Both the position numbers and the translations under genes were made by a program. A stretch of 64,000 nt of DNA, taken from the NCBI GenBank assembly GCA_945861875.1, contig CAMAWC010000003.1, positions 1 to 64,000 on the forward strand. Direction: 5' to 3'. Below the pieces are notes generated by a model, which was not told the origin of the DNA, made no database searches, and saw nothing but the letters and a program-made list of their open reading frames with translations. Source of the stretch: Bordetella parapertussis (GTDB lineage: Bacteria; Pseudomonadota; Gammaproteobacteria; Burkholderiales; SG8-39). This document shows positions 43,451 to 64,000 of this stretch, piece by piece. Position 1 is the first letter of the stretch. Each line of letters opens with the position of its first letter.

Positions 43451-43508
43451 GAAGCTCCGGCCGGGTGCTTCAGCAGTACTTAATAAAGTTGAAAAAGGAG
43501 TGATACGC

Positions 43509-44489: not shown

Positions 44490-44510
44490 AGGCAATACAA
44501 GAAAGGCAAT

Positions 44511-44545
44511 GCGCTGGAAAACCGCGCCAGATAAGGCTTTCAAGC
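44511..44545. repeat. 'TGGAAA...TTTCAA' palindromic element, family B (copy 4)
   Basis: 'GCGCTGGAAAACCGCGCC' then 'AGATAAGGCTTTCAAGC'. It sits directly before a family A repeat between two receptor genes. Confidence 0.62.
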
Positions 44546-44550
44546 CATCC

Positions 44551-44665
44551 GTCATCCCCGCGAAAGCGGGGATCCATGGGGTTCGTCTCAGGCATCAAAA
44601 CAAAAACCCATGGATTCCCGCTCCCCGATTAAAGCGTTCGAGGACAAGCTTCGCGGGAATGACGG
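44551..44665. repeat. Dispersed palindromic repeat, family A (copy 8, interrupted)
   Basis: The left hairpin 'ATCCCCGCGAAAGCGGGGAT' is intact. The right hairpin is split: 'GATTCCCGCT' is followed by about 28 extra bases ('CCCCGATTAAAGCGTTCGAG' and onward) before 'TCGCGGGAATGACGG'. Confidence 0.82.
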
Positions 44666-44712
44666 CTAAATACAATTGGCGGGAATCAGGTAATTTTTCA
44701 ACCGGAACGAAT

Positions 44713-45675: not shown

Positions 45676-45741
45676 CGGCTGCGCCGGTCTTTTTTGGTAA
45701 TGGCGGGAAATGCTGTAGATTGGCGGCGAGGAGGAGTCAAC

Positions 45742-46722
45742 ATGAAAACATTAAAAATCGCCGCCGCAGCGCTGGCCCTGACCCTGGCCTGCGCATCCCA
45801 GGCGCTGGCCCAGGCCCAGGCCTACCCGAACAAACCCATCCGCCTGGTGGTGCCGTGGCCACCGGGGCAGGCCACCGATCTTGCCGCGCGCATCGTCGGC
45901 ATCAAGATCAGCGAGTCGCTGGGACAGCCGGTGGTGGTGGACAATCGCGCCGGCGCCGGCGGCACACTTGGCACCGACATTGCCTCCAAGGCGGCGCCCG
46001 ACGGCTACACGCTGCTTGCCGGATCGAGCGGGCCGGTGTCGATCAGCCCGCTGCTGCAAACGGTGCCCTACGACCCGGCGAAGGCTTTCGCGCCGGTCAG
46101 CCTGATCGCCACGGTGCCCTACATCCTGGTCACCCATCCGTCTTTTCCGGCCAATAACGCACGCGAGCTGATAGGGCTCTTGAAGGCCAATCCGGGCAAG
46201 TACACCTTTTCTTCATCAGGCACCGGTGCGACCGGGCATCTGGTGGGCGAACTGTTCAACGCCACGGCCGGGGTGCAGGTCTTGCACATACCATACAAGG
46301 GCGCGACGCCTTCGCTCACGGACATCATGAACGGCAACGTCGGCTACAGCTTTGAAACCCTCGCCGCGGTGGTCGGACCGATCAAGTCCGGACGCTTGAA
46401 GGCGCTGGCCACTTCGGGGGCGCGGCGCAGTGCGGCGCTGCCCGATGTGCCGACCGTTGCCGAGTCGGCCGGCATGCCCGATTTCGCCATGGCGGCATGG
46501 ATAGGCTACCTGATGCCGGCCGGCACGCCGCCAGAGGTGCTTGCGCGCCTGAGCGCCGAGGTGCAAAAAGCCATGCAGGCGCCGGACCTGAAGGAGCGCT
46601 ATCTTGCCCTGGGCATGGACCCGGTGGCCAACACACCCGAGGAACTGGGCGCGCTGATGGTGCGCGAGCGCGAACGCTACAGCACGATTATCAAGCGGGC
46701 CAACATCAAGCTGGAGCAATAA
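45742..46722 (+). CDS. TTT-family (Bug) periplasmic substrate-binding protein
   Basis: Receptor of 326 residues with signal 'MKTLKIAAAALALTLACASQ' ending near 'ALAQAQ', and 'PIRLVVPWPPGQATDLAA' (GGxxD replaced by GQATD), 'APDGYTLLAGSS' and 'HIPYKGATP'. GGAGGAG precedes ATG 45742. It is the third of a plus-strand receptor series and converges on the next one. Confidence 0.93.
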   Translation: MKTLKIAAAALALTLACASQALAQAQAYPNKPIRLVVPWPPGQATDLAARIVGIKISESLGQPVVVDNRAGAGGTLGTDIASKAAPDGYTLLAGSSGPVSISPLLQTVPYDPAKAFAPVSLIATVPYILVTHPSFPANNARELIGLLKANPGKYTFSSSGTGATGHLVGELFNATAGVQVLHIPYKGATPSLTDIMNGNVGYSFETLAAVVGPIKSGRLKALATSGARRSAALPDVPTVAESAGMPDFAMAAWIGYLMPAGTPPEVLARLSAEVQKAMQAPDLKERYLALGMDPVANTPEELGALMVRERERYSTIIKRANIKLEQ

Positions 46723-46782
46723 GCGCGACTGCGCGCAATTCAAGCCAGGCGGATCGGGCCTGGCCCGCCGGGGTCAGTGGCG

Positions 46783-47781
46783 TCAGTCGAGCTTGATGCC
46801 CAGTTCTTGAATGATGGGACGGAACTGCGCGACCTGTTTGCGCAGCATGGCGTCCTGCTCAGCCGGCGTTGAGCCGACCGCCTCGGCGGAGATTTCGTTG
46901 AGGCGTTTCATTACTTCCGGGTGACGCACGGCCGCCGCGGTTTCGCGCTGCAAGCGGTCGATGATGTCGCGCGGGGTTTTGGCCGGGGCGAACAGGCCGT
47001 TCCAGCCGTCGGCCTCGATTTTGGGCATGCCCATTTCGCGCACGGTCGGCACATCGGGAAGCGCCGGGATGCGCGTCGCCGATACGGTTGCCAGTGCCTT
47101 CAGCGTGCCCTTTTTAATGTCACCGATGGACGAGGACAACTGGTCGCCGCCGACTTGTATGCGCCCGGCGAGCAATTCTTGCTTCAGCGGGGCGGCGCCC
47201 TTGTACGGGATGTGGGTCATCTCGATTTTTTCCTCGCGTTTGATCACTTCGCCGACCACATGCATGAACGAGCCGGGTCCGGTGGAACCGTAGTTGTATT
47301 TCAGCGTGCTGTCTTTTTGCAACAGGGTTGCCAGTTCGCGCAGGTTGTTGGCCGGCACGCTGGGGTGCACCATGATTACCAGCGGCACGTTGGCGGCTAT
47401 GGATATGCCGGCGAAGTCGGTGTCGATGTTGTAGGGCGCGCGATTGGCCAGGGCGAGGGCGACCGATGCGAGCGGGAAGGTGATGTTGTGCATCAGTATG
47501 GTGTAGCCGTCGGGGGCGGCCTTGGCGACCGCATCGGCGCCGATCGAGCCGCCGGCGCCGGCGCGGTTTTCCACCAGCACCGGCTGGCCCATGGTCTCGG
47601 TCATGCGCTGCGCCACCAGGCGCGCGATGATGTCGGTGGTGCCGCCCGCCGGGAAGGGCACGATGATCTTGATCGGCCGGCTCGGGTAGGCCTGTGCCAG
47701 CGCGCCGGTCGGTATCGCAGCGCTCAGGGTGAGCGCGAGGGCGCAGAGTGCGGCCCGCAGGACTGCTTTTGTTGAAACCAT
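46783..47781 (-). CDS. TTT-family (Bug) periplasmic substrate-binding protein
   Basis: Receptor of 332 residues with signal 'MVSTKAVLRAALCALALTLS' ending near 'GALAQ', and 'PIKIIVPFPAGGTTDIIA', 'APDGYTILMHNI' and 'HIPYKGAAP'. GGGAGG precedes ATG 47781. It is transcribed against the previous receptor and in line with the next one. Confidence 0.93.
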   Translation of the reverse strand: MVSTKAVLRAALCALALTLSAAIPTGALAQAYPSRPIKIIVPFPAGGTTDIIARLVAQRMTETMGQPVLVENRAGAGGSIGADAVAKAAPDGYTILMHNITFPLASVALALANRAPYNIDTDFAGISIAANVPLVIMVHPSVPANNLRELATLLQKDSTLKYNYGSTGPGSFMHVVGEVIKREEKIEMTHIPYKGAAPLKQELLAGRIQVGGDQLSSSIGDIKKGTLKALATVSATRIPALPDVPTVREMGMPKIEADGWNGLFAPAKTPRDIIDRLQRETAAAVRHPEVMKRLNEISAEAVGSTPAEQDAMLRKQVAQFRPIIQELGIKLD

Positions 47782-47907
47782 GGTTTCCTCCCGGTATTTT
47801 TTTGTATGTATTCCGGAGTTAGATACTACGCCTGTCCGGAGCCTCGCACAGTGGGGCGTTCGCCGTGCAACTGCGCGCCCGGCGCAAGGTCGAAGTGGTC
47901 GAGGGAC

Positions 47908-48879
47908 CTAGTTGGCGACGATACCGGCCGCGCGTATCAGTTTGCCGTAGCGCGCCACGTCACTGCGTATCAGATTGCCGAATTCGACCGGGCCGTCGCC
48001 CGACAATTCAAAGCCCAGCGTCGAGAGCTTGGCACGCACCGACGGATTGGCGATGGCCCTGGCAAACTCGGTATGCAGTTTGCGGATCACCTCGGGCGGC
48101 GTGCCCGCCGGTGCGACCACGCCGTTCCAGGCGGCGTAGCCGTAGCCGGGAACACCGGCTTCGGCGATCGTCGGCACATCGGGCATCGCGGCCGAGCGCC
48201 TGGGCGTGCTGATGCCAAGCGCGCGCAGCTTGCCGTCCTTGACCAGCGATATGACATTGGACATGCCCGAGAACATCACCGGCACATGGCCGGCCAGCAC
48301 GTCGGCCAGGGCCGGGCCCATGGACTTGTAGGGCACGTGCGTCATGCGCACACCGCTCGCCTCCATGAAAAACTCCATCGCCAGGTGTTGCGCGGCGCCG
48401 GCGCCGGTGGAGGAAAAATTGATGCTGTCGGGCTTGCCCTTGGCCATTGCAATCAGCTCGGCGAGATTCTTTGCCGGGAAGGCCGGATTGACCACCAGCA
48501 CCAGCGGAACGGTGGAGAACAGCGTTACCGGCAGGAAATCTTTCAGCGGGTCGTAGGGCAGCTTGGCGTACATCGCCGGGTTGGCCGCCATGATGCCGTC
48601 GTTGGGCATGAACAGGGTGTAGCCGTCGGGCGCCGAGCGCGCCACCGCTTCGGCGGCGATGATGCCGTTGGCGCCGGTGCGGTTGTCTATGATCACCGCC
48701 TGGCCGACCTGCTCGGCCACCTGTGCGCCGACCACCCTGGCGATGGTATCGACCGCGCTGCCGGTGCCAAAGGGCACGATGATGCGAACCGGCTTGTCGG
48801 GAAAAGTCTGGCCGGCGGCGAGGTTGGCGAAGCACAGTAGTGTGGCGGTCAATAGCGTGGCAAGACGGCGCAAAATCAT
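47908..48879 (-). CDS. TTT-family (Bug) periplasmic substrate-binding protein
   Basis: Receptor of 323 residues. Signal 'MILRRLATLLTATLLCFANL' ends near 'AAGQ', then 'PVRIIVPFGTGSAVDTIA', 'APDGYTLFMPND' and 'HVPYKSMGP', where the usual glycine after the lysine is serine. ATG 48879 with GGAAA upstream is preferred to the track start at 48978. It is divergent from an MmgE/PrpD gene, with which it may share regulation. Confidence 0.92.
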   Translation of the reverse strand: MILRRLATLLTATLLCFANLAAGQTFPDKPVRIIVPFGTGSAVDTIARVVGAQVAEQVGQAVIIDNRTGANGIIAAEAVARSAPDGYTLFMPNDGIMAANPAMYAKLPYDPLKDFLPVTLFSTVPLVLVVNPAFPAKNLAELIAMAKGKPDSINFSSTGAGAAQHLAMEFFMEASGVRMTHVPYKSMGPALADVLAGHVPVMFSGMSNVISLVKDGKLRALGISTPRRSAAMPDVPTIAEAGVPGYGYAAWNGVVAPAGTPPEVIRKLHTEFARAIANPSVRAKLSTLGFELSGDGPVEFGNLIRSDVARYGKLIRAAGIVAN

Positions 48880-48989
48880 GATGATTTCCGGTGAGTTGGG
48901 GGGGCGGGTCATTGTAGACTGTGCCGGAGGCAATTCACAATTCAAGGTTTGCATTTTGCAATGGCAGCCGGATCGCAATGGAGCGAGGC

Positions 48990-50426: not shown

Positions 50427-51719
50427 TCATGTCCAGGCGTGTCCAATGCGCTGCTCGACCCATAGCGCGACGGCGAGCAAGTGATCATCGCGGTGGAATC
50501 CACCGATGAATTTTGTGCCCACGGGCAGGCCCTTCGGCCCTTTGTGCGTCGGCAGTGATATTGCCGGTGCGTGCAGGAAAGTCCACATGCTCTGCCAGCG
50601 CTGATCTCCGGTTGCGGAAAGTCCCTCGGGTGCCTCGCCGGCGGCGCTTGGAACCAGCAGCGCGTCGCAGTCACCGAGTACGGAGGGAAATGCCGCGCGG
50701 CACGCCGCCGCAGTGGCGAGGTCATCAAGATAGTCTTCGTAGCGGTGGTCGCGGCCGATCTCGAGGTATTGCTGGAGTTTCTCGCTCAACATTTCGCGGT
50801 GATTGTTCCATTCCCACGCCAATGCCCGGAAGAATTCATATGACAGCACCCTCCAGTGCGCCGCAGCCATGCTCGCAAAAAGCGGCGGTAATTCAATGCT
50901 TGTGACGCGCGCGCCCGCTGTGGCGAGTTTCGCCCCCATGTCATGGACCGCCTCGATCGATTCCGGGCTGGTTTCATTCCAGAGGTGCGTTCGGGCGATG
51001 GCAATGCGCGGCGGCCTTAGGAGGACGGTGGTGCCAACAGCCGGCCGGCCGTTGAGTACGGCATTGACCAGTGCAATGTCATTGACTGAGCGCGCCATGC
51101 ACCCGATGGTGTCAAGCGATTCGGACTCGGACATCACCCCGGCGCGATTGACCAGCCCGTAGCTGGGTTTCCAGCCGACTACGCCGCAAAATGCCGCGGG
51201 ACGGATCACCGAACCGGCGGTCTGGGTGCCGATGCCGGCCGGTACCATCAGGTCGGCCACCGCCGCGGCGGTACCGCTCGATGATCCCCCCGGCGTGTGC
51301 GCAGTATGGTGAGGGTTACGCGTCAGGTTCGGCTGCATGGCGGCAAATTCGGTCGTGACGGTTTTCCCGAGGATTACCGCACCGGCTGCCCGCAGCAGTC
51401 CTACCGAGGCGGCGTCGGCCCGCGGCTGGTTGCCGTCGTAGATGGGAGAGCCCATGCCGGTGGGCATATCGGCGGTGTTGAAGATGTCTTTAACTGCGAT
51501 GGGTACCCCATGCAGCAGACCGCTTCGCTCGGCAGAGTCGTCCCGCTCACGCGCCTGGAGGAGTGCCTTTTCCGCCGACAGGTACGCCCAAGCGTGCACC
51601 ACGGGTTCACGCGTCGCGATGCGTTCGAGGCAATCCTGTACCAGGTCCACGGAGGAAATACCGCCAGAAGCTATGCGCCGTGCGGCGTCAGTGGCCGAGA
51701 GGTGGTTTAAGTTCGTCAT
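50427..51719 (-). CDS. Amidase-signature family hydrolase
   Basis: Amidase of 430 residues with K77 in 'VPIAVKDIFNT', the cis-serine in 'TPGGSSSGTAAA' and the nucleophile in 'GTQTAGSVIRPAAF', where QTAGS replaces the common DTGGS. No AtzG-like small gene accompanies it, unlike the amidase at 21185. It converges on the MmgE/PrpD gene and is divergent from the glutamine synthetase cluster. The substrate is unknown. Confidence 0.9.
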   Translation of the reverse strand: MTNLNHLSATDAARRIASGGISSVDLVQDCLERIATREPVVHAWAYLSAEKALLQARERDDSAERSGLLHGVPIAVKDIFNTADMPTGMGSPIYDGNQPRADAASVGLLRAAGAVILGKTVTTEFAAMQPNLTRNPHHTAHTPGGSSSGTAAAVADLMVPAGIGTQTAGSVIRPAAFCGVVGWKPSYGLVNRAGVMSESESLDTIGCMARSVNDIALVNAVLNGRPAVGTTVLLRPPRIAIARTHLWNETSPESIEAVHDMGAKLATAGARVTSIELPPLFASMAAAHWRVLSYEFFRALAWEWNNHREMLSEKLQQYLEIGRDHRYEDYLDDLATAAACRAAFPSVLGDCDALLVPSAAGEAPEGLSATGDQRWQSMWTFLHAPAISLPTHKGPKGLPVGTKFIGGFHRDDHLLAVALWVEQRIGHAWT

Positions 51720-52172: not shown

Positions 52173-53558
52173 GTGAACGACCCGAGACTGATCGCCGAAA
52201 CGAAACGCCAGTTGACCGCCAAGGGAGTGGAGTACTGCCTTGCGGCTTACGTTGATGGTCATGGCGTGCCGAAAACCAAGACCGTGCCTATGGCCTATTT
52301 TGAAAAAATGGCAAAAGGCTCCGAACTCTTCACCGTCGGTGCCCTCGAGGGCCTCGGCTTGATCGGTCCGCAAAAAGACGAATGTGCGGCGGTCCCCGAT
52401 CTGTCCAATCCAGTCATTCTTCCTTGGGACAAGCGATTCGCCTGGTTTGCCAGCGACCTTTACTACCATGGTGAGCCGTACGTAAATTGCCCCAGGGTCG
52501 CGCTGAAGCGTGTTTTGGCGAAGACCGCTGCAGCCAAGCAGGTGTTCAACCTTGGTGTCGAGCCCGAGTTTTACGTGTTCCGCAAGTCTGCCGGCGGCTT
52601 TGAGCCCATGGCGACGAGCCGTTTTTTGGGGCCGACTCCCGCATACGATGCCGACCAGACGATGCAGTCGTTCGCTTTCCTCGACCCGATCGTGAGGTAC
52701 ATGAACGAACTGGGCTGGGGCGTCTATTCGTTCGACCAGGAGGGGGGGCGCGGCCAGTATGAGCTGGATTTTGCCTATGCCGATGCGCTCAAGACCTGTG
52801 ACAGGCTGATATTTTTGCGTTTTATGGCAAAGCAGGTGGCCCGCTCCATTGGATGCGTTGCGAGCTTCATGCCCAAGCCGTTCAGCGATGATTTTCGTTC
52901 CGGCGCCCACTACAACATGTCTTTGGCCGACGCAAAGTCAAAGGTCAACCTGTTTGAGCCGAAACGTTCCGCGCCGGGCAAGCTGGCGAAGCGCTACGGT
53001 ATCGAGATTGCCGACATCGCCCTCCACTTTTCAGCGGGACTGTTGGCGCATGCGCCGGCATTGACGGCGCTTTCCTGTCCGACCTTCAATTCCTACAAGG
53101 GGCTGGTTTCTCAGGGAGACATGGCAGACATGTCCTGGGCGCCGGTAATGCGGTGCTATGGCCGCAACAACCGTTCCGCGATGCTCCGATTGCCGATGAA
53201 CCGCTATTGCATCGAGAACCGTTCCCCGGATATCAGCACGAACTATTACCTGACGGCGGCGTTTTCCCTCGCGGCCGGCATGGAGGGCATGAAAAAACAG
53301 TCCGATCCGGGCGCGCCCTGGAACGAGAACCTGTACGAACTCGAAGGCGGGCGCACGACCCGCTCACAGCCCATGCCCGAGCGTCTGCCACGTACGCTCA
53401 TCGAAGCCCTTGATGCGTTCGGGACGGACCCCTTGATCGTCGACACCTTTGGGGCGGAGTTCCGGGATATTTATTTGAAACAAAAGACAAAGGAATGGGA
53501 GCAGGCCTTCTACAAAATTTCCGATGAAGAGCGGCACAGCGCGATGGAATACATTTGA
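52173..53558 (+). CDS. glnT: Type III glutamine synthetase-like (GlnT/GmaS family) amide ligase
   Basis: ATP-dependent glutamate-amine ligase fold of 461 residues. Active-site segments are 'GVEPEFYVF', 'DQEGGRGQYELDFAYAD' (metal site; family form E..GQ.E), 'FRSGAHYNMSLAD' (ammonium/metal site), 'FNSYKGLV' and the nucleotide loop 'NRSAMLRLP'. NCBI-style names call this type III glutamate-ammonia ligase; relatives include N-methylglutamate-pathway GmaS and amine glutamylases. As the first gene of a catabolic cluster, it may attach glutamate to an amine or assimilate released ammonia. Confidence 0.87.
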   Translation: MNDPRLIAETKRQLTAKGVEYCLAAYVDGHGVPKTKTVPMAYFEKMAKGSELFTVGALEGLGLIGPQKDECAAVPDLSNPVILPWDKRFAWFASDLYYHGEPYVNCPRVALKRVLAKTAAAKQVFNLGVEPEFYVFRKSAGGFEPMATSRFLGPTPAYDADQTMQSFAFLDPIVRYMNELGWGVYSFDQEGGRGQYELDFAYADALKTCDRLIFLRFMAKQVARSIGCVASFMPKPFSDDFRSGAHYNMSLADAKSKVNLFEPKRSAPGKLAKRYGIEIADIALHFSAGLLAHAPALTALSCPTFNSYKGLVSQGDMADMSWAPVMRCYGRNNRSAMLRLPMNRYCIENRSPDISTNYYLTAAFSLAAGMEGMKKQSDPGAPWNENLYELEGGRTTRSQPMPERLPRTLIEALDAFGTDPLIVDTFGAEFRDIYLKQKTKEWEQAFYKISDEERHSAMEYI

Positions 53559-53571: not shown

Positions 53572-54210
53572 ATGAACTCGCCCAATGCCAGTATCCAGCT
53601 CTACACGGCCGCTACCGGAAACGGCCGTCGGGCGACCATCATGCTCGAGGAGTGCGGGCTGCCGTATGTTGCCCACGTCATTCCCATCGGCAAGGCCGCG
53701 GTCAAGCCGTTCGAATTTTTGCGCATCAATCCGCACGGAACAGTGCCGCTGATTGTCGATCCGGGGGGCGAACATGGACGGGACGTGGTGTTGCGCCAGT
53801 CAAGCGCCATCCTGCTGTATCTGGCGGAAAAGTCTGGAAAGCTGCTGCCGCGGGATCCGGCCGCGCGGGCCGTGATGTTCGAATGGATGATGTTCGCCGT
53901 GACCGACGTTGTCGGGTCAAACACGGCGATGTACCAGACAATGACCGAGTTTCCCGACAACGCGCCCGGCGTGGTCGAGTTTTTCCGGCGCCAATTGGTG
54001 GAATTCCTGCGTGTTTGCGACGCGAGACTGGCTCAATCAGAGTATCTGGCCGGAGCGGAAATGAGCATCGCCGACATCGCGCTTTTTCCGGTGTTCGTGA
54101 GCAGGGCAGCCTTGGTAGAGGAGTCGGACGGGCTGGACAATTTCAAGCGATGGGCGGCGGCAATCGGCGCCAGGGCGGGTGTACGGCGCGCACTTGCCGT
54201 GGGAACCTGA
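53572..54210 (+). CDS. Glutathione S-transferase family protein
   Basis: GST of 212 residues with an N-terminal thioredoxin-like domain ('IQLYTAATGNGRRATIMLEE', 'NPHGTVPLIVD', 'RQSSAILLYLAEKSGKLLP') and a helical C-terminal domain ('AEMSIADIALFPVF'). This matches the Nu/YfcG-like group, which often has disulfide or peroxide activity and is common in catabolic clusters. ATG 53572 follows GAGGGG, 13 bases after the glnT stop. Its role could be detoxification of a reactive intermediate. Confidence 0.88.
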   Translation: MNSPNASIQLYTAATGNGRRATIMLEECGLPYVAHVIPIGKAAVKPFEFLRINPHGTVPLIVDPGGEHGRDVVLRQSSAILLYLAEKSGKLLPRDPAARAVMFEWMMFAVTDVVGSNTAMYQTMTEFPDNAPGVVEFFRRQLVEFLRVCDARLAQSEYLAGAEMSIADIALFPVFVSRAALVEESDGLDNFKRWAAAIGARAGVRRALAVGT

Positions 54211-54300: not shown

Positions 54301-54394
54301 GACGTGGAACAAGCAAACCGGGCGGGAAGCATGACTTTATGGCAGGCCTTTGTGGCAGACGGGTTCGACTCGACAACACCTCTGGGAGAATGAC

Positions 54395-55522
54395 ATGAAT
54401 GACATGAATAAAAAAGGCAAGACAAGTTTTGCCACTCGGCGCAGGATTCTTGCGGGCGCCGCCGCCGGGACGGCATTGGCGGTCACCGGAATGTCAATGC
54501 CCGCCATCGGGCAGGGGCTGACCAAGGTCAAGCTGACGCTTCCCTGGTTGCCGCAGGGGTCTCAATTGTGGCCGTTTGTGGCGAAGGAACGCGGGTTTTG
54601 GCGCAAGCGGGGTCTTGATGTGGAAATCGTCCGCGGTTTCGGCTCCAACGCCGCCATCCAAACGCTGGTGCAGCGCCAGACCGATGTCGGCATCATTGCG
54701 GTCCCCTCGATCATGCTGTCCGCCGCACAAGGCGTACCCTTGCGCTCGTTCGGCATCGTCGGCTACGACCTCGGCATGGGCATCCTTACCCTTGAGGAAG
54801 GGCCGATTAAAACCCTCAAGGACCTCGAGGGTCGCAAACTCGGTACGACGCCCCCGTCGGCAGAGGCGCCGTATGTGGATGCTTTTCTGCAGGGCTCGAA
54901 TGTTGACCTGAGCAAGGTATCGCGCGTTGCGTTACAGGGCAATGTGCTCGATTCATCCCTGCTCAATAAGCAGGTGGACGCCATTTCCGCGGTCGCAACG
55001 TCCAACCTGCCGAGTCTGCTGTCCCAGGGCATCAAGCTGCGCTTTTTTCCGATGAACAGCGCCGGTATCAACACATACTCGCTCGGTTTGACGGTGGCGC
55101 CGGAGTATGCAAGCGCCAACCGGGCCGTCGTTGAAGGGTGGGTTGACGGAATGAATGAGGGCATCAAGTATTTCATGCTCAATTTCGAGGAATCGGTGGA
55201 CCTGTTTGTGAATGCGGTACCGGAGGTGAAAATGTCCGCCACCGGAAAGGTGCACACGCGCTACGGGGCAGGCCTTGCCCTTGCCACCATGATGGCGCCG
55301 GAGTTGCGCGATCATGGGCTGGGCTGGGCAGACATGGCGTCCTTGAACAAGCAAACCGATTTGGTGATGAAGTTCGGAGCGCCGCCAACGGCCAAGCGCC
55401 CGGACGTCGGCGCCATCTTCACCAACGAGTTCGCGGGCAGGATGAAGCTCACTGCGCAAGAAGACGCCAGTGTGCGCAAGACCGCCGCGGAGTTTGCCCG
55501 TCACCTGAACTTCAAGGTCTGA
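54395..55522 (+). CDS. NitT/TauT-type ABC transporter substrate-binding protein (Tat-exported)
   Basis: Periplasmic receptor of 375 residues in the SsuA/NMT1-like family. The signal 'FATRRRILAGAAAGTALA' is twin-arginine. The mature domain starts 'KVKLTLPWLPQGSQLWPFVA' and continues 'RGLDVEIVRGFGSNAAIQTL' and 'TDVGIIAVPSIMLSAAQG'. Relatives bind sulfonates, nitrate, thiamine precursors, phthalate or cyanate. GGGAG precedes ATG 54395. The ATPase gene follows 12 bases later. Confidence 0.92.
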   Translation: MNDMNKKGKTSFATRRRILAGAAAGTALAVTGMSMPAIGQGLTKVKLTLPWLPQGSQLWPFVAKERGFWRKRGLDVEIVRGFGSNAAIQTLVQRQTDVGIIAVPSIMLSAAQGVPLRSFGIVGYDLGMGILTLEEGPIKTLKDLEGRKLGTTPPSAEAPYVDAFLQGSNVDLSKVSRVALQGNVLDSSLLNKQVDAISAVATSNLPSLLSQGIKLRFFPMNSAGINTYSLGLTVAPEYASANRAVVEGWVDGMNEGIKYFMLNFEESVDLFVNAVPEVKMSATGKVHTRYGAGLALATMMAPELRDHGLGWADMASLNKQTDLVMKFGAPPTAKRPDVGAIFTNEFAGRMKLTAQEDASVRKTAAEFARHLNFKV

Positions 55523-55534: not shown

Positions 55535-56383
55535 ATGGCCGTCGCACCCGCCCAGCCTCCAAGGCCGCCCAGCGAGGAAGCCTTCATACGCGTCGCCGGG
55601 GTGGGCAAGACCTACGCCGGCAAAGGTGGGCGGGGGCTCAAAGCACTGCACGATGTCAGCTTTGACGTGGGACGACGGCAGTTCATTTCCATTCTCGGTG
55701 CATCCGGCTGCGGGAAAAGCACGTTGTTGATGATGATTGCGGGGCTGGAGCAGATCAGTGCGGGCCAGATCATCATTGCCGGGCAGGTCGCCGGCCGTCC
55801 GCGCCGCGATGTCGGCGTTATCTTCCAGGACGCGACTTTGCTGCCATGGAAGACGGCCATCGAGAACGTGCTTCTCCCTATAGAAATATTCGGGCTTAAG
55901 AAGGAGCAGTACCGCGAGCGTGCGGAGGCCTTGCTTGGGCTGGTGGGGCTGGGCCACGCGATGGACAAGCGCCCACGCGAGTTATCCGGAGGCATGCGGC
56001 AAAGGGTGTCGATCTGCCGGGCGCTCATCCATGAGCCGTCGGTGCTGTTGATGGATGAACCGTTCTCGGCGCTTGATGCGATCACGCGTGATGACTTGAA
56101 CGTCGAACTGCTGCGCATCTGGGACCGTTACCACCAAACGGCTTTGTTCGTCACGCACTCGATAAGAGAGGCGGCATTCCTGTCCGATCGCGTCATTGTT
56201 CTGGGTGACCGTCCAGGGCGTGTTCTGGCGGACATGACCATGCCGTTTCCGCGGCCACGTGATCTTTCCATCGGCGAAACGATCGAGTTCAACCGCATTT
56301 GCGCCGAACTCCGGCACCACGTCGCCACGGGGCACGCCGAAGCGTCGGCAGCGGTATCTACCACGACCGGAGCGGCGACTTGA
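55535..56383 (+). CDS. NitT/TauT-type ABC transporter ATPase
   Basis: ATPase of 282 residues with Walker A 'GASGCGKST' near 60, Q-loop 'VIFQDATLLPW', signature 'LSGGMRQRVSICRAL', Walker B 'VLLMDEPFSALD' and H-loop 'FVTHSIREAAFLSDRV'. The SsuB/TauB-like arrangement matches the preceding receptor. Its TGA overlaps the permease start as TTGA. Confidence 0.93.
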   Translation: MAVAPAQPPRPPSEEAFIRVAGVGKTYAGKGGRGLKALHDVSFDVGRRQFISILGASGCGKSTLLMMIAGLEQISAGQIIIAGQVAGRPRRDVGVIFQDATLLPWKTAIENVLLPIEIFGLKKEQYRERAEALLGLVGLGHAMDKRPRELSGGMRQRVSICRALIHEPSVLLMDEPFSALDAITRDDLNVELLRIWDRYHQTALFVTHSIREAAFLSDRVIVLGDRPGRVLADMTMPFPRPRDLSIGETIEFNRICAELRHHVATGHAEASAAVSTTTGAAT

Positions 56384-57204
56384 AGCCCGAATCATCGACT
56401 GTCGAAGTATTCGAAGCCGCTGGCGGACCGACGGCGTCCGAAGGCTCGGCCCTGGCGTACGTACTTCGCAAGATCGCACAACCGGTTGCCGCGGCGGCGG
56501 TATTCCTTCTGGCTTGGGAGATACTGGTCAGGGCCTACCAGATCAAACCGGCATTCCTGCCCCCGCCCAGCGCTATTCTGCTTGCCATGGCGGCGCAGTG
56601 GGAAATCCTCCTGAAAAACGCCGTTCCCACGGCACTGGAGTCACTTGGCGGATTTGTCCTGTCGGTGGTGGTCGGGGTAATGCTCGGGGCGTTGTTGACG
56701 TTTTCGAGGGCGTCGCGCGACTATCTTTACCCAAACGTCGTATTGTTCCAGCTTGTGCCCAAGGTCGCAGTGGCACCGCTGTTCATGCTTTGGCTCGGGA
56801 TCGACTGGCAGTCACGGGTGGCCATCGCGTTTTTCATCGCGTTTTTCCCCATTGTCATTTCCACGGTATCGGGCCTGAATGCGGTCGATCCGACCCTGCT
56901 TCGCCTTTTCCGCAGCCTGACTGCGAACGAATGGCAGGTGTTTATGAAGGTGCGCGTTCCGATGTCACTGCCGTTTGTCTTCAACGGCATGAAGATCAGC
57001 ATGACGCTGGCTATCATCGGCGTCATTGTCGGCGAGTTTGTCACTTCACAACGCGGCCTCGGTTACATCATTCTTTTTGCCGGATCACGCCTTGAAACGG
57101 CGTTGGTCCTGGCAGCCATACTCGTGCTTTGCATCGTGGGCCTCCTCCTGTACGGCATTGTGGCGCTGGCCGAGCACCTGATCATGAAGAAATACGGCGC
57201 TTGA
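56380..57204 (+). CDS. NitT/TauT-type ABC transporter permease
   Basis: Inner-membrane permease of 274 residues with about six helices and the EAA loop 'LFRSLTANEWQVFMKVRVPMSLP' (quoted as 'WQVFMKVRVPMSLPFVF'). A hydrophilic N-terminal stretch of roughly 25 residues precedes the first helix. The start is TTG 56380, which shares four bases with the ATPase stop; the track's ATG at 56299 lies inside the ATPase gene. It completes a receptor-ATPase-permease importer for the cluster's substrate. Confidence 0.9.
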   Translation: MKPESSTVEVFEAAGGPTASEGSALAYVLRKIAQPVAAAAVFLLAWEILVRAYQIKPAFLPPPSAILLAMAAQWEILLKNAVPTALESLGGFVLSVVVGVMLGALLTFSRASRDYLYPNVVLFQLVPKVAVAPLFMLWLGIDWQSRVAIAFFIAFFPIVISTVSGLNAVDPTLLRLFRSLTANEWQVFMKVRVPMSLPFVFNGMKISMTLAIIGVIVGEFVTSQRGLGYIILFAGSRLETALVLAAILVLCIVGLLLYGIVALAEHLIMKKYGA

Positions 57205-57206
57205 GC

Positions 57207-58004
57207 ATGGTGCAAACCGGCTTTTCAAACCGGGTCGCCCTGATCACCGGCGGCGCCACGGGGATTGGGCTGGAACTGGCGAGGCAGCTGCGTTTGCGCA
57301 ACAACGAGGTGGTGATTTGCGGGCGCCGGCAGGAGTTGGTCGAGAGTGCGCTGAGGTCGATACCAGGGTTGCGTGGCATCGCATGTGACCTGGGCGCGGA
57401 CGAGGGCATCGACCGCCTGCTCGATTTTGTCCGCAGCGAGAAACTGACTATCGACCTGCTGGTCAATAACGCGGGCATACAGGTGCAGACGGACCTGATG
57501 GTCGCCGATGATCGCATCACCGGGGCGCTGGAGTATGAGTTGCAGGTCAACCTGCTTGCACCGATGAAGCTGACAAAGCGCCTGCTGCCGTCGCTGCTGT
57601 CGCGGCCGGACGCGGTGATCCTCAATATGCTTTCCCTGCTCGCAATCATGCCCAAGGCAAATGCCCCCGGATATTGCGCCGCCAAGGCCGGGCTTTTTGC
57701 TTTTTCGAAGTCGCTTCGTGTTTTGCTCGCGCAACGCGACATCCGGGTTTTTGTGGCTTTCCCGCCGCTGGTCGACACGCCGATGATGCGGGGGCGGGGC
57801 AGCAACAAGATGCCGGTGGAGACATTTGTCCGGGAGATGCTTGAACAAATGTCGCGTGGGCGTCTGGATATTTGCGTCGGATCGGCGCGCACCCTTTATC
57901 GGCTGGAACGCCTCTCACCGGCGCTTGCCGGATGGTGGACCCGACGCATCTCGGCCGGCAGCACCCTTCCGGCCGAACAACCCAAGACACCCCCTATCCA
58001 ATAA
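57207..58004 (+). CDS. SDR-family oxidoreductase
   Basis: Short-chain dehydrogenase of 265 residues. The nucleotide motif is 'TGGATGIG' at 15-22, the structural motif 'NNAG' near 88, the catalytic serine in 'LNMLSLLAIMP' and the Tyr-Lys pair in 'GYCAAKAGLFAFSKS'. The first part resembles DltE-like SDRs. The C terminus ends in a Pro-rich tail ('PAEQPKTPPIQ'). ATG 57207 comes two bases after the permease stop. It probably oxidises an alcohol or reduces a carbonyl in the pathway. Confidence 0.9.
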   Translation: MVQTGFSNRVALITGGATGIGLELARQLRLRNNEVVICGRRQELVESALRSIPGLRGIACDLGADEGIDRLLDFVRSEKLTIDLLVNNAGIQVQTDLMVADDRITGALEYELQVNLLAPMKLTKRLLPSLLSRPDAVILNMLSLLAIMPKANAPGYCAAKAGLFAFSKSLRVLLAQRDIRVFVAFPPLVDTPMMRGRGSNKMPVETFVREMLEQMSRGRLDICVGSARTLYRLERLSPALAGWWTRRISAGSTLPAEQPKTPPIQ

Positions 58005-58028: not shown

Positions 58029-59171
58029 ATGCAAGGCAATATGTTTGACCCGAAACTCTACGATGCAGTCAGGCGCCCCCTGGGAGAGGCCAGCCACCTG
58101 CCGGCCTGGTGCTACACCTCGGAGGCGTTCTATCGCGCCGAAGTCGAGCGCATTTTTATGCGGACGTGGAATTTCATTGGCCGCGCCGATCAGCTTAAAA
58201 AGCCGGGGGACTATTTCACCGTCGAGATGACCGGGATTCCGCTCATCGTCTTGCGCGGCGCGGATGGGAAATTGAGTGCATTCGTCAATTCCTGCCGCCA
58301 TCGCGGCGCGCGCCTGCTCACCGGAGAGGGTTCGGGCCGCCGTACCATCGCCTGTCCGTATCATGCCTGGGTGTATGGAATGGACGGAAGCCTGCTTGCG
58401 GCGCAGGGCATGGATGGCATAGTGGATTTTCAACTTGGCGACCATGGTTTGCAATCCGTGCGCCTTGAAACCTGGGATGGTTTCGTTTTTGTCAATTTCG
58501 ATGCGGGGGCGGGCAGCCTTGACGAGTACCTCGGGGACCTGCCGCAGAGGATGGCCTCATACGATCTGGGCAGCATGGTGACGGTGCGGCGCAAGGAGTA
58601 CCAGATAGACTGCAACTGGAAGCTGCTTACCGAGAACTCGATGGAGGAATATCACACTTCGACGGTTCATCGTGGATCAATCGGGGCGCAGACGCTTACC
58701 TACGAAAAGGGGCGCGGGCAGTGGGAGGCCGGCCATTTGTTTTCGGAAAAATCCGTCGCGACCCTTCCCGGTGAAAAGGGCGGATTTCCGCATATCAAGT
58801 CCCTTACCGGGAACGCGGCGCAGGGAACCTACTTCGTTCTACTCAATCCCTGCACGACGCTGGCCCTGGCACAGGATTCCCTGATGTGGCTGGAGCTATA
58901 CCCCCTCGGGGCGGCACGAACAAAGCTGGTTGTCGGCTCCGCCTTCCCGCGTTCGACTGTCGAGCGCGCCGACTTTGAAGAGGTCGTCCAGATCTACTAC
59001 CGCAGGTGGGACAAGTCGATTCCCGAGGATAACTGGATTTCCGAGGAGCAGCAGCGCGGTCTGGAGTCGCCGCTGAGCAAGACCGGCAGGGTATCCCGGT
59101 TCGAGCCGGTCGTTCACAGTATGGCCAACTGGATCCTTGACCGGGTGCTGGAGGTTCCAGGCAAAAAATGA
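58029..59171 (+). CDS. Rieske non-heme iron oxygenase, alpha subunit (first)
   Basis: Oxygenase of 380 residues. The Rieske cluster ligands are C89, H91, C109 and H112 ('CRHRGARLL', 'CPYHAW'). The mononuclear iron site has H209 and H214 in 'ENSMEEYHTSTVH', with a later Asp in 'PEDNW'. The residue bridging the two metal sites, normally Asp, is Glu (E206), as in carnitine monooxygenase CntA and betaine oxygenases. No beta subunit, ferredoxin or reductase gene is present, so electrons must come from proteins encoded elsewhere. ATG 58029 has GGAG upstream. Confidence 0.92.
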   Translation: MQGNMFDPKLYDAVRRPLGEASHLPAWCYTSEAFYRAEVERIFMRTWNFIGRADQLKKPGDYFTVEMTGIPLIVLRGADGKLSAFVNSCRHRGARLLTGEGSGRRTIACPYHAWVYGMDGSLLAAQGMDGIVDFQLGDHGLQSVRLETWDGFVFVNFDAGAGSLDEYLGDLPQRMASYDLGSMVTVRRKEYQIDCNWKLLTENSMEEYHTSTVHRGSIGAQTLTYEKGRGQWEAGHLFSEKSVATLPGEKGGFPHIKSLTGNAAQGTYFVLLNPCTTLALAQDSLMWLELYPLGAARTKLVVGSAFPRSTVERADFEEVVQIYYRRWDKSIPEDNWISEEQQRGLESPLSKTGRVSRFEPVVHSMANWILDRVLEVPGKK

Positions 59172-59287
59172 GTTCCCGTACACGTACCAATCACAGCAAA
59201 TACAAACCCAAACTGCCGGACCGCGCCACGGTTGCAGGTCAGACGGGTCTGCATCGCTGCATTGAAACAGCTGCCAAGGGGAAGTGA
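59168..59287 (+). CDS. Possible 39-residue coupled small ORF
   Basis: The frame opens with an ATGA overlap at the Rieske stop and closes with TGA one base before the next ATG, so it fills the gap exactly. The product would be basic ('MSSRTRTNHSKYKPKLPDRA') with one cysteine in 'LHRCIETAAKGK'. Its ribosome site is weak and its third-position GC is lower than that of its neighbours. It is either a coupling leader peptide or chance. I know of no family. Confidence 0.35.
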   Translation: MSSRTRTNHSKYKPKLPDRATVAGQTGLHRCIETAAKGK

Positions 59288-59288
59288 T

Positions 59289-60284
59289 ATGACGGACAAG
59301 AAGCTTGTAACCTATGTAAAGAATGTTCGCTCCCTCGGAGCGGTATTCGATCTCGACAAAGAGGTTTTCGCAAAGGTGGCCGCGCGCTTCCCGGAAGTCG
59401 CGAAGAGGCTTGATTTACGGATCGGCTACGACGACGACGAAGTGGCGAAATGGCTGCCGGAGGCCGAAATCCTGTTTGCCTGGGAGTTCGATCGCAGCAA
59501 TCTTGCCGTGGCGGCGCCCAAGCTGCAGTGGATACAGTTGATGGGCGCCGGCCTGGACCATCTGCTGCCGCTCGACTGGCTGCCTCCGAAAGTTCGCCTT
59601 GCCACCGCCGCCGGGGCTCATCATGACAAGGCGGGTGAGTTCCTGTCCACCGCCGTATTAATGCTGAACAACTGGATTCCGGCATTTGCCACGGAACAAC
59701 GATCGGCAAAGTGGGCAACGCGGTACTCCGGCCCGGTGACCGGGAAAACCGTCCTTCTGGTCGGCGTCGGCGGAACCGGGGGCGCTTGCGCCGAACGCTG
59801 CAAGGCGCTGGGCATGCAGGTATTGGGCGTGCGGCCGAGCCGCAGGCCGCACCCGGCGGTCGATGAGATGTTTGGCAGCGACGAGTTGAAATCTGTCCTG
59901 CCGCGCGCCGATTTCGTCGTCGTCACGGTGCCGCTGACCGAGCGCAACCGCGGCACCATCGGCCGCGAGGAATTCGCCTGCATGAAGCAGGGCGCGGGAC
60001 TGGTGAATATCGGTCGCCACGGCGTCGTGAATGAGGCGGCAATGATGGAGGCCCTGGAGAGCGGCAAACTCTCGGGTGCGGTACACGATCTGGAGGATCC
60101 GGCCGCCGTCCCTTGCGACAAGCGACTCTGGACAACGCCCAATTTGCTCATTATCCCGCATTGCCTGACCAATGATCCGGCAACATTTCGCGAACATGTG
60201 CTTGAAGTATTTTTCAAGAATGTCGATGAATACCTGGCCGGCCGAGAGCTTAAAACGCTGGTCGATCGGAAGCTGGGGTACTGA
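59289..60284 (+). CDS. D-isomer-specific 2-hydroxyacid dehydrogenase family protein
   Basis: NAD(P)-dependent dehydrogenase of 331 residues. The nucleotide-binding motif is 'VGVGGTGGACAERCKALG' near 155. The catalytic trio is R in 'VNIGRHGVVNEAAM', E in 'GAVHDLEDPAAVPC' and H in 'IIPHCLTND'. The 'DLEDP' context differs from the usual DV(F/W)..EP, so the substrate may not be a standard 2-keto acid. GGGGAAG precedes ATG 59289. It follows the first Rieske gene and the small ORF. Confidence 0.9.
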   Translation: MTDKKLVTYVKNVRSLGAVFDLDKEVFAKVAARFPEVAKRLDLRIGYDDDEVAKWLPEAEILFAWEFDRSNLAVAAPKLQWIQLMGAGLDHLLPLDWLPPKVRLATAAGAHHDKAGEFLSTAVLMLNNWIPAFATEQRSAKWATRYSGPVTGKTVLLVGVGGTGGACAERCKALGMQVLGVRPSRRPHPAVDEMFGSDELKSVLPRADFVVVTVPLTERNRGTIGREEFACMKQGAGLVNIGRHGVVNEAAMMEALESGKLSGAVHDLEDPAAVPCDKRLWTTPNLLIIPHCLTNDPATFREHVLEVFFKNVDEYLAGRELKTLVDRKLGY

Positions 60285-60404
60285 ACCCCAACTGGGCATC
60301 TAAAAGGATCCGGTGTCAGGTAAAGAGCGCCGGGGCTGATTAATTGATAGCGCAACGCGGTCGCCATACCGCGGCAATGACTTCACATAAAAAAGGATTT
60401 TTCC

Positions 60405-61478
60405 ATGAGCAACCCACGTTACAAGTACAACGCCCTGATGGATTTGGTGGCGGCCCTTGGCACAAAAGTCGGCTTGCCGGCCGATCGTGCCAGAACGCAG
60501 GCGGAGATCCTGCTCGAAGGGGACCTGATGGGACACACGACGCACGGCCTGGCGCTGTTGCCGGGCATGCTCTCCGGGCTGGAGTCCGGAGCGATCCGCG
60601 CTTCCGGCGACCAGATTCAGGTATCGGATCACGGATCGACCATCGTATGGGATGCCGACCGCCTGCCGGGTACCTGGATGTTGACAGAGGCCATCTCCGA
60701 GGCCTGCCGCAGGATAGACAAACATCCGGTGATGACGGTTGTGCTCAAGCGCATGTCCCATATCGCGGCTCTTGGCGCCTATCTTCGCCAAGCGACCGAC
60801 AAGGGGCTGGTGATCTCGATCATGAATTCCGACCCTTCCATGCGCACCGTCGCGCCGGCCGGCGGGATGGAAGCGCAGTTGGCGGCAAACCCCATTGCGT
60901 TTGGCTATCCGACCGATACGGACCCGGTACTCATCGACGTCAGCACTTCCCCCGTTGCCAATGGCTGGGTTCGGCGCTGGGGCGCCGAAAAGAAAAAACT
61001 GCCGGGTAAATGGCTGCTCGACGCATCAGGAAATCCGACAGACGAGCCGGGTGCCTTGTTTGGTACGCCGAGTGGCGCGATGCTTCCGCTTGGCGGCCTG
61101 GAACTTGGGCACAAGGGCTTTGCCTGGGGGTTGATCGTCGAGGTGCTGACGGCGGGGCTATCGGGCCTCGGTCGAGCCGACAATGTCGCGCCTAACACCG
61201 GTACACCGGTTTTCCTGCAGATCATCGACCCGGATGCGTTTGCGGGAAAGACCGCATTGAAACGCGAGGCGGGTTGGCTGGCCAATGCCTGCCGCAATTC
61301 CAAACCGATTCGTCCCGGATCCACGGTGAGAATGCCGGGGGATTCGGCCCTGGCATCGCGCCGGCGCCAGCTTGCCGCCGGCGTGGAACTCTATCCGGCC
61401 ATTCCGCCCGAGTTGTCAAAATGGGCCGACAAGCTGGGTGTCAAAATGCCCGCGGCGATGGCTGAAGGCGCAGCCTGA
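60405..61478 (+). CDS. Ldh-family (malate/L-lactate dehydrogenase-type) oxidoreductase
   Basis: NAD(P)-dependent dehydrogenase of 357 residues from the family unrelated to classical MDH/LDH; members act on malate, sulfolactate, ureidoglycolate and delta-1-piperideine-2-carboxylate. Motifs are 'GHTTHGLALLPGML' near 44, 'MSHIAALGAYLRQA' with the catalytic His near 116, and 'NPIAFGYPTD'. AAAAAGG precedes ATG 60405. Because some members reduce cyclic imines or oxidise ureidoglycolate, its presence fits an N-containing substrate. Confidence 0.9.
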   Translation: MSNPRYKYNALMDLVAALGTKVGLPADRARTQAEILLEGDLMGHTTHGLALLPGMLSGLESGAIRASGDQIQVSDHGSTIVWDADRLPGTWMLTEAISEACRRIDKHPVMTVVLKRMSHIAALGAYLRQATDKGLVISIMNSDPSMRTVAPAGGMEAQLAANPIAFGYPTDTDPVLIDVSTSPVANGWVRRWGAEKKKLPGKWLLDASGNPTDEPGALFGTPSGAMLPLGGLELGHKGFAWGLIVEVLTAGLSGLGRADNVAPNTGTPVFLQIIDPDAFAGKTALKREAGWLANACRNSKPIRPGSTVRMPGDSALASRRRQLAAGVELYPAIPPELSKWADKLGVKMPAAMAEGAA

Positions 61479-61489
61479 ATTTCCGCGCC

Positions 61490-62143
61490 GTGACGGCAGC
61501 AGCGCAGGAGCTTCGCCCAAACTGGCCCGACGGCCTTCCGCCCGAAAGGGCGAAGGACCTGATGGCGGCGGCGCTGGAGCTTTTTGCGCGGCATGACTAT
61601 TCATCCGTGACGATCAAGGATATTGCGCGCAGCCTGGGGGTGAATACCGCGCTTATCTACTATTACTTTGACAGCAAGGAAGACCTGTTCCGGGTCACCC
61701 TCGAGTATTTCATCCAGAAAGCCCTGGAAACCTTTCGCGGCCTTGAGCGTGCCAACGAGGATCCGGTGAAAATGCTTTCGGCATGGTTTTCCACCCAGGC
61801 GCGCCTCGCCGGCGAGATCCGCCAGTTGGTCAAGATCATGCTCGATTACAGTATCTCCGGAGGCCAGTCAAAAGTGGCGGACGCGGCGATTCATGTGTTC
61901 TACCAGCACGAGTTGAAGATACTCTCCAGTCGCATCCAGCTTGGTGTCAAAAAAGGAATCTTCCGTGCCGTCAATGTAAAAAGGGCGGCGCAACTCGCGT
62001 CGACCCATCTGGATGGAATCATGGTCGGTTCGCTGATGCATCCTGATTTTGACGTTGCCTCGGCGATTCGTGATTTTGAAGAGGTTTTTTGGAACTATCT
62101 TGGCTACAGTCCTGCCCGGAAAGTTTTGCTAAAACGCAGATGA
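61490..62143 (+). CDS. TetR/AcrR-family transcriptional regulator
   Basis: Regulator of 217 residues. The helix-turn-helix spans 'LMAAALELFARHDYSSVTIK' and 'DIARSLGVNTALIYYYFDSK' at about 25-65; the ligand-binding C-terminal domain has a long helical region. It is inserted within the catabolic cluster, 12 bases after the Ldh-family gene and 13 bases before the second Rieske gene, and reads in the same direction. It probably represses the cluster and releases DNA when it binds substrate. GTG 61490 is the start. Confidence 0.92.
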   Translation: MTAAAQELRPNWPDGLPPERAKDLMAAALELFARHDYSSVTIKDIARSLGVNTALIYYYFDSKEDLFRVTLEYFIQKALETFRGLERANEDPVKMLSAWFSTQARLAGEIRQLVKIMLDYSISGGQSKVADAAIHVFYQHELKILSSRIQLGVKKGIFRAVNVKRAAQLASTHLDGIMVGSLMHPDFDVASAIRDFEEVFWNYLGYSPARKVLLKRR

Positions 62144-62155
62144 AAGGATAGCCGA

Positions 62156-63304
62156 ATGACCGAGCTTTTCGAGTCCAAAACCTATCGCGCGCTTCGCAAA
62201 CCGCTGCTTGATGCCGAGACCCTGCCGCCGGAGTGCTACACCTCGGCGGAGTTTCATCGCCGCGAGGTTGCCGAGATATTCCTGAAGAGCTGGAACCTCG
62301 TCGGTCGAACCGACTATGTGAAGAAAGCCGGTGACTATTTCACGCACACGGTGACGGGCGTGTCCTTCATCGTAATTCGCGGCGACGACGGCCGCATCCG
62401 GGCCCTGGTCAACTCCTGCACGCATCGCGGGACAAAGTTGCTCGAAGGTGAGGGCAATTGCCGCACGATCCGCTGCCCCTATCACAGCTGGATGTTTGAC
62501 CGGGACGGGGCGCTCAAAAGCGCGCCCTATATGCAGGACGTTCCGGGATTCTCCATGGGGGAAAATGGGCTCGTTGAAATCAGGCTGGAGGAGTGGTCGG
62601 GTTTCCTGTTCGTGAATTTTGACCCCGGGTGCGGCAAGCTGCGGGACTATCTTGGCGACCTGGATGCGTGGACGGAGTCCTACGAGTTTGGGCGCATGGT
62701 CACGGTCAAGCGCAAGGAGTTCGTGATCCGCGGAAACTGGAAAGGTTACGTGGAGAATTCCCTTGAGCACCTGCACCTGCCCACGGTGCATCAAAAGACC
62801 ATCGGCGGCGTGCAGGCGATATGGGAGCCGGTTGATGGAACGCCGGGAAACTATGTGATCCTGCGCTCGAAAACCGCCAATTCGCGTGCGACCCTTGGGA
62901 AGGATGTGGCATTTGACAGGATCGCCAGCCTGCGCGGACCGGCTGCTGAAGGGGCGCAGTACATATTGATTTATCCCTGCACCGTCATCGGGGCTGATCT
63001 GGATTGCATGTGGTTCAAGCAACTGCTGCCGGAAGGGCCCGATACGGTCCGGGTTGTCGCGGCGTTTTGCTTCACCCAGGAGGCGGTGGCAAGGCCGGAT
63101 TTCGAACAGGTGGTGCAGAGTTATCACAAACGGTTCGATCTGGTGATGGGTGAGGACAACGATATCTCGGGCAAGCATCTGGCCGGGGTGGAAAATCCCC
63201 TGGCCCGCCCGGGACGCTTTTCCAGTCTGGAGCCGCTGGTCCACCGCATCGATAACTGGATTGTCGACCGGGTGATCGGCCGCGGCGAAGGCGAAGCTAA
63301 GTAG
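62156..63304 (+). CDS. Rieske non-heme iron oxygenase, alpha subunit (second)
   Basis: Paralog of the oxygenase at 58029, 382 residues. Rieske ligands are C88, H90, C107 and H110 ('CTHRGTKLL', 'CPYHSW'). Iron ligands H207 and H212 lie in 'ENSLEHLHLPTVH', and the bridging residue is again Glu (E204). A later Asp is in 'GEDNDIS'. The two proteins share the entry 'CYTS', then 'GDYFT' and the whole layout, but differ in the pocket region, so they may act on different steps or pair as unlike subunits. AAAGGA precedes ATG 62156. Confidence 0.92.
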   Translation: MTELFESKTYRALRKPLLDAETLPPECYTSAEFHRREVAEIFLKSWNLVGRTDYVKKAGDYFTHTVTGVSFIVIRGDDGRIRALVNSCTHRGTKLLEGEGNCRTIRCPYHSWMFDRDGALKSAPYMQDVPGFSMGENGLVEIRLEEWSGFLFVNFDPGCGKLRDYLGDLDAWTESYEFGRMVTVKRKEFVIRGNWKGYVENSLEHLHLPTVHQKTIGGVQAIWEPVDGTPGNYVILRSKTANSRATLGKDVAFDRIASLRGPAAEGAQYILIYPCTVIGADLDCMWFKQLLPEGPDTVRVVAAFCFTQEAVARPDFEQVVQSYHKRFDLVMGEDNDISGKHLAGVENPLARPGRFSSLEPLVHRIDNWIVDRVIGRGEGEAK

Positions 63305-63365: not shown

Positions 63366-64000
63366 ATGGACAAGGGGCAAGGCACAAGTGGCAGTACCGC
63401 GCCGGGTGGCGCAGAGCAGCGCCGGCTTGAGGCGAACGCAGAGGCTTTCCGGCGGCTGTGCACCTCTGATCCGGTACTCCTGGATGTCAGGCCGGCCATT
63501 GAGGTTGTACCGGGATTTACCCGCGAAACAATTCTCACCTCCGGACCACTGCTGGCATGGGATGAATACACGGGGGGGCAGCGTTCGGCAATCATCGGCG
63601 GGGCATTGTTCGAGGGGCTGGCAAGCGATGCCCTGGATGCCGAGAAAAAGCTGGCGGCGGGGAGCATCCGGCTGCGTGGCTGCCAGGAACTGAAGTGCGT
63701 AGGCTCTCTTGCCGGGATCTACACCGCATCGATGCCGGTCTTTGTCGTCAGCAACAAGGCTTTCGGCAATCTCGCCTACTGCAACATCTACGAGGGCACC
63801 AATCCGCGCAGGCTCAACTACGGCGTATATGACGATGGGGTGCGAGACCGGCTGCGTTACATCAGCGACATCATTGCTCCCGTTCTTGGCAGGGCGGTTC
63901 GTTCCGAGGGTGGCATACCGCTCAAATCCATCATGAGCCGCGCCCTGCACATGGGGGATGACCTGCACAGCAGGAATACCGCGGCTTCGCTGCTGTTTTC
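63366..64000 (+). CDS. DUF1116 (YlbE/AllG-like) protein, cut by the window end
   Basis: The frame is open from ATG 63366 to the last base; only 211 codons are visible of a family normally over 400 residues. It reads 'ANAEAFRRLCTSDPVLLDVR' and 'VVPGFTRETILTSGPLLAW', then 'GALFEGLA', 'GSLAGIYTASMPVFVV' and 'ALHMGDDLHSRNTAAS', all DUF1116 landmarks. YlbE (AllG) works with FdrA (AllF) and YlbF (AllH) in the oxamate carbamoyltransferase step of allantoin use in E. coli. FdrA-type and carbamate-kinase genes should be looked for just past the edge. AGGAGG lies upstream. Confidence 0.82.
   Translation, partial: MDKGQGTSGSTAPGGAEQRRLEANAEAFRRLCTSDPVLLDVRPAIEVVPGFTRETILTSGPLLAWDEYTGGQRSAIIGGALFEGLASDALDAEKKLAAGSIRLRGCQELKCVGSLAGIYTASMPVFVVSNKAFGNLAYCNIYEGTNPRRLNYGVYDDGVRDRLRYISDIIAPVLGRAVRSEGGIPLKSIMSRALHMGDDLHSRNTAASLLF

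Follow-up and report, generated by a model that had tools for sequence, protein, structure and literature searches.

Can the residue that bridges the two metal sites of a Rieske oxygenase be read as a guide to its substrate? The question is raised by the first 64,000 nucleotides of contig CAMAWC010000003.1 (C3) of the Bordetella parapertussis assembly GCA_945861875.1, here called the window, near whose end lie two Rieske oxygenase genes on the forward strand, A (58029..59171, protein P0001, 380 residues) and B (62156..63304, protein P0002, 382 residues), with 46% identity between their products. A first-pass annotation had noted that both proteins carry a bridging glutamate where naphthalene-type enzymes carry aspartate, and had taken this to favour an amine or quaternary ammonium substrate. 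The observation is correct, but its inference over-reaches: as judged from alignments and trees, the bridging residue does not name the substrate class, glutamate being an inherited and exchangeable form of the bridge, and by the same evidence a better marker of the clade to which A and B belong is an arginine, Arg326.

Both genes were assigned from open reading frames (ORFs), Pfam and alignment, their products matching the Rieske (PF00355) and Ring_hydroxyl_A (PF00848) families above the Pfam cut-offs, and their AlphaFold2 (AF2) models have a mean predicted local distance difference test score (pLDDT) of 96.2 for A and 94.1 for B. The Rieske ligands (C89, H91, C109 and H112 in A; C88, H90, C107 and H110 in B) are invariant and stand in the CxH...CxxH motif by which alpha subunits are recognised, while the two histidines and one carboxylate of the mononuclear iron site (H209, H214 and D334 in A; H207, H212 and D334 in B) align with H208, H213 and D323 of CntA. 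The alignment, which includes A. baumannii CntA and reproduces its published numbering (Y203, E205, C206, H208, C209, H213, D323), puts E206 of P0001 (codon GAG, 58644-58646) and E204 of P0002 (codon 62765-62767) in the column of CntA E205, with the iron ligands following at the correct spacing. Glutamate as the bridging carboxylate of both proteins is thereby borne out, and so is the statement that naphthalene-type enzymes use aspartate, which is found in this column in NdoB, BenA, HcaE and AndAc. That the glutamate is an alignment artefact and the real bridge another residue could be argued from A, where two glutamates stand in succession (E206 and E207); this is scarcely credible, however, given an N-x-x-E-x-x-H-x4-H pattern that runs unbroken and gap-free against CntA, and given that B, C (see below) and most relatives show glutamate at this position only.

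Two further paralogs lie on the same contig beyond the window: C (C3:65290-66495, equivalent to 1290-2495 of stretch L010, forward strand), 1.3 kb past the window end, and D (C3:71718-72890, L010:7718-8890, reverse strand), 7.7 kb past it. D is followed by a D-2-hydroxyacid dehydrogenase gene of its own. The genome has 26 Rieske-domain matches, and the bridge is glutamate in A, B, C and D and aspartate in the 17 other aligned oxygenases. On the sequence evidence, glutamate in A–D is not chance, but it is one inherited state and not four events, because the four are paralogs forming one clade with their relatives.

Relatives were gathered from plasmids and from a set of 84,980 species and compared with references (CntA, YeaW, GbcA-like, Stc-like, two choline-linked proteins, NdoB, BenA, AndAc and HcaE), some of which are named by gene neighbourhood only. 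In a 112-row tree, whose rows over-represent glutamate relative to the whole family because relatives were picked by similarity to A–D, glutamate is the usual residue in a broad alpha-only branch, and the pattern requires at least seven Asp/Glu changes; a careful 61-row tree requires four. Aspartate forms occur within the clade of A–D itself (L043, L044, L045, L048 and L050), and at L043:8649-12242 three overlapping or abutting oxygenase genes have Glu, Asp and Asp as their bridges, each with the equivalent of Arg326. Substrate class is not readable from the bridge, because aspartate and glutamate have replaced one another repeatedly, also within this clade. Although A and B possess the bridging glutamate that is among the features of group V enzymes (CntA, Stc2, GbcA), the residue is unspecific, occurring far outside that group, and its use as a diagnostic of amine substrates is ruled out by the tree and by the aspartate forms within the clade of A–D. 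The first-pass suggestion of an amine or quaternary ammonium substrate loses its footing here; a nitrogen-containing substrate is plausible on the basis of the gene neighbourhood, not of the glutamate.

A scan of the alignment for residues conserved within the clade and absent elsewhere led to Arg326 (codon 59004-59006 in A and 63131-63133 in B, both on the forward strand), which occupies the column of the substrate-contact residue Tyr315 of CntA. Arginine is found there in 27 of 27 clade rows and in none of the 85 rows outside the clade (0/27 with a Cys pair, 0/58 of the rest); seven rows added later gave arginine in six and lysine in one, for a total of 33/34, and in every row compared the residue sits 8 positions before the iron-ligand aspartate. 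As placed by alignment to CntA and in the predicted pocket, R326 would line the substrate pocket, where a carboxylate or some other anion would be its expected ligand, and this pocket is more likely than the glutamate to determine which substrate is accepted.

The possibility that A and B belong to group V and oxidise a quaternary ammonium compound of the carnitine, betaine or choline type has more behind it than the shared bridge. CntA and Stc2 are the top PDB matches by sequence profile and by fold; in the structure prediction that had been proposed as a check, the best fold match of both proteins was indeed CntA, followed by Stc2 and then by terephthalate and biphenyl dioxygenases. The Va enzymes CntA and YeaW (PDB 6Y8J, 6Y9D) are likewise alpha-only, of similar length and equipped with the same bridge, iron ligands and spacing, CntA matching the predicted folds with a template modelling (TM) score of about 0.75-0.85 at 23-26% identity, and the Vb enzymes Stc2 and GbcA (PDB 3VCA, 4QUP), also bridged by glutamate, form the second-best fold group. 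GbcA is the best NCBIfam match too, but its scores of 165 and 115 bits fall short of the cut-off of 670 and the match spans just the N-terminal half. The L121 reference, located beside a choline dehydrogenase gene, likewise has Ser at position 203 and lacks a Cys pair. Still, the pockets differ. Position 203 is Tyr or Phe in group Va and Asn in Vb (PMC7948474), and a Cys206/Cys209 pair occurs in some members (PMC10952381), whereas position 203 is Ser in A, B and C and Ala in D, and the columns of the Cys206-x-x-Cys209 pair hold E/T, H/L, W/H and E/L in A–D, respectively. The carnitine contacts Tyr225, Phe258, Asn270, Tyr295, Tyr315 and Phe319 are all altered, the aromatic substrate cage of CntA is missing, and the cationic Arg326 replaces Tyr315. 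Approximately unbiased (AU) tests reject a grouping of the A–D clade with either the Va references (CntA-type, p 0.00425) or the Vb references (Stc/GbcA-type, p 0.0147); support for the deep branches between the wider groups is moderate (87/88 to 87/93 in the 61-row tree), and their order is not settled. No BCCT or betaine transporter was recognised among the neighbouring ORFs, and a search of the genome for a dedicated CntB-like reductase yielded nothing more than a weak match of 73 residues. Group V membership of A–D was rejected on the AU tests and pocket residues, and oxidation of a quaternary ammonium compound by A and B as members of that group appears distinctly unlikely. The phylogeny called for by the first-pass annotation thus gave a divided answer, with A and B outside the aromatic references, as it had expected, but not grouped with group V.

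That a plain aromatic ring is the less likely substrate holds up well, the 52-row clade containing A–D excluding NdoB, HcaE, BenA and AndAc at 100/100 support and thereby leaving A and B outside the aromatic-ring and aromatic-acid references alike. NdoB has in common with A–D the two-domain alpha chain and the metal ligands, but belongs to a distant clade and has an Asp bridge preceded by one extra residue. The aryl-carboxylate oxygenases (terephthalate dioxygenase, TPADO; NagGH; AndAc) share the Rieske/catalytic two-domain fold, and in both groups a cationic residue may bind the carboxylate; however, the aligned members have an Asp bridge, and their arginine stands 47 residues before the iron ligand as opposed to 8 in A–D. 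This arginine, R309 in TPADO, binds the aryl carboxylate (PMC9060491) and has an arginine equivalent in six of six aryl-carboxylate-type rows, while the column holds Leu/Ile in A and D and Lys in B and C, a distribution from which the paralogs probably differ in substrate. None of A–D clusters with AndAc, salicylate hydroxylase or BenA. It could be argued that A and B are ring hydroxylases for an aromatic acid or an aromatic amine, the latter glutamylated by the product of a nearby glutamine-synthetase-like (GS-like) gene, since GS-like genes act with Rieske oxygenases in the 1-naphthylamine and aniline pathways (PMC11335346, PMC4539516) and since the R309 column holds Lys in two of the four paralogs, B and C. 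With the clade so clearly apart from the four aromatic references, Leu/Ile at that column in A and D, and no beta subunit or ring-cleavage gene recognised beside the oxygenases, this explanation is very unlikely.

The genes around A and B, all on the forward strand unless noted, hint at the metabolic setting. A is preceded by an SDR dehydrogenase (57204..58004, PF00106) and directly followed by a D-isomer 2-hydroxyacid dehydrogenase (59289..60284, PF02826), the most recurrent partner of the clade. Between A and B lie an Ldh_2 dehydrogenase of the malate/lactate/ureidoglycolate type (60405..61478, PF02615; NCBIfam score below the cut-off) and, directly before B, a TetR-type regulator (61490..62143, PF00440). 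An AllG-like ORF (63366..64000, PF06545, formerly DUF1116) runs on to C3:64658. Upstream are an amidase-signature hydrolase (50427..51719, reverse strand, PF01425), the GS-like ligase (52173..53558, PF00120), which scores 420.9 bits against a cut-off of 469.6 for the type III-related family TIGR03105, a glutathione-S-transferase-like protein (53572..54210, PF13409) and an ABC transporter comprising an NMT1-type (nitrate/taurine-like) binding protein (54350-55522, PF09084), an ATPase (55535-56383, named from sequence and clustering with other ABC ATPases) and a permease (56299-57204, likewise named from sequence). Beyond the window end are an amino-acid-type ABC transporter and two DUF1989 proteins (L010:567-1268 and L010:3577-4182), the former of which exceeds the NCBIfam cut-off for UAAP1 (214.8 vs 205.95) and does not reach that for UAAP2. 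DUF1989 is related to a trimethylamine N-oxide (TMAO) demethylase domain by an NCBIfam match, and work cited in PMC11271267 places a carboxyguanidine deiminase in the family. Further upstream, five successive genes for solute-binding proteins of the Bug/tripartite tricarboxylate transporter (TTT) type occupy 43386-48978, three on the forward and two on the reverse strand.

A similar set recurs at locus L036, with two oxygenases, Ldh_2, TetR, GS-like and D-2-hydroxyacid dehydrogenase genes and an AllG-like gene (L036:1748-3004) that matches PF06545 and is homologous to that of the window. Apart from the genome of the window, only 3 of about 369 in the class hold homologs as close as E 1e-70, and none as close was found in 24 genomes from its family; the cluster is therefore scattered and may have moved horizontally. 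Two other leads came to nothing. No Rfam match to a xanthine or guanidine riboswitch was obtained in the window or L010, and kinship with the purine oxygenase HpxD, considered in view of the AllG/Ldh_2 theme, was not established, as HpxD was not identified in a Klebsiella record, where the best match to A is a CntA-like gene (35%) and others are weaker. As for electron donors, a Fer2 match on the contig (C3:74733-74891) adjoins molybdenum-hydroxylase-like genes. Locus L153, from another family of the same order, has consecutive genes (6116-9229) for an oxygenase, in which Lys takes the place of Arg326, a D-2-hydroxyacid dehydrogenase and a Fer2/NAD reductase of the phthalate-dioxygenase type; a further, divergent unit there comprises DUF1989, dehydrogenase and ferredoxin genes. 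These units suggest the type of donor that may serve A–D.

The reading that we favour, with some rather than strong confidence, assigns A–D to an uncharacterised subfamily of alpha-only Rieske non-haem iron oxygenases, in which the bridging glutamate is no substrate marker and an Arg326 pocket takes a small nitrogen-containing organic acid for monooxygenation or oxidative N-dealkylation. A reductase encoded elsewhere would supply the Rieske cluster with electrons, which in a putative trimer would cross to the neighbouring subunit via E206 or E204, hydrogen-bonded to the iron-ligand histidine (H209 or H207); the iron, held by two histidines and Asp334, would receive them and activate O2, and oxygen would be inserted into the small acid held by R326. 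The adjacent 2-hydroxyacid dehydrogenases could then take up the released oxo acid, and the DUF1989, GS-like or amidase proteins would deal with the nitrogen part. A nitrogen-containing substrate is favoured because of the DUF1989, GS-like and amidase genes nearby, and an oxo or hydroxy acid product because of the 2-hydroxyacid dehydrogenases, which together suggest oxidative C–N cleavage. When neighbouring genes were chosen by codon usage, clustered and compared between 24 clade loci and 64 other oxygenase loci, a D-2-hydroxyacid dehydrogenase was found near 10/24 as against 2/64 (p 2e-5) and DUF1989 near 5/24 as against 0/64 (p 0.001).

Several points weigh against this proposal. The loci are kin, so that these p values are too small; enrichment around clade loci is absent for the GS-like gene (p 0.39) and weak for AllG and Ldh_2 (p 0.07 each), and as conserved partners all three lack statistical support. 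No reductase adjoins the oxygenases on the contig, the placement of R326 in the pocket depends on the CntA alignment, and the AF2 models are monomers. It is also conceivable that the substrate of A and B is a small acid lacking nitrogen, with hydroxylation of a 2-hydroxy or ether acid as one example, and that the dehydrogenases process the acid or supply NADH. Such a role would suit the anion suggested by R326, the D-2-hydroxyacid dehydrogenase as strongest neighbour and the Ldh_2 gene between A and B, and NADH-recycling dehydrogenases have a precedent in a Rieske pathway, TsaC/TsaD (PMC10579966). Since DUF1989, GS-like, AllG-like and amidase genes and the amino-acid-type ABC transporter speak for nitrogen, we consider it unlikely. 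More tentatively than the nitrogen-containing acid itself, A–D may be viewed as an arginine-pocket, Glu-bridged alpha-only subfamily that, with D-2-hydroxyacid dehydrogenase and DUF1989, forms a new catabolic route that breaks C–N bonds in small anionic nitrogen compounds; in this subfamily the Glu and Asp bridges of adjacent paralogs would perhaps be interchangeable, with function retained.

What makes the Arg326 clade and its natural mixture of Glu and Asp bridges worth following is the contrast with CntA, in which even the E205D exchange abolishes activity (PMC7948474, PMC7986066), whereas relatives of A–D, some of them adjacent on one contig, carry either residue. Because close relatives differ in this way, the clade could serve as a test of the electron bridge and of what else must change for it to work, a question that mutagenesis of a single enzyme leaves open. 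For the family at large, the comparison cautions against using the bridging residue to infer a substrate class, and offers Arg326 as a better marker for a scattered oxygenase subfamily.

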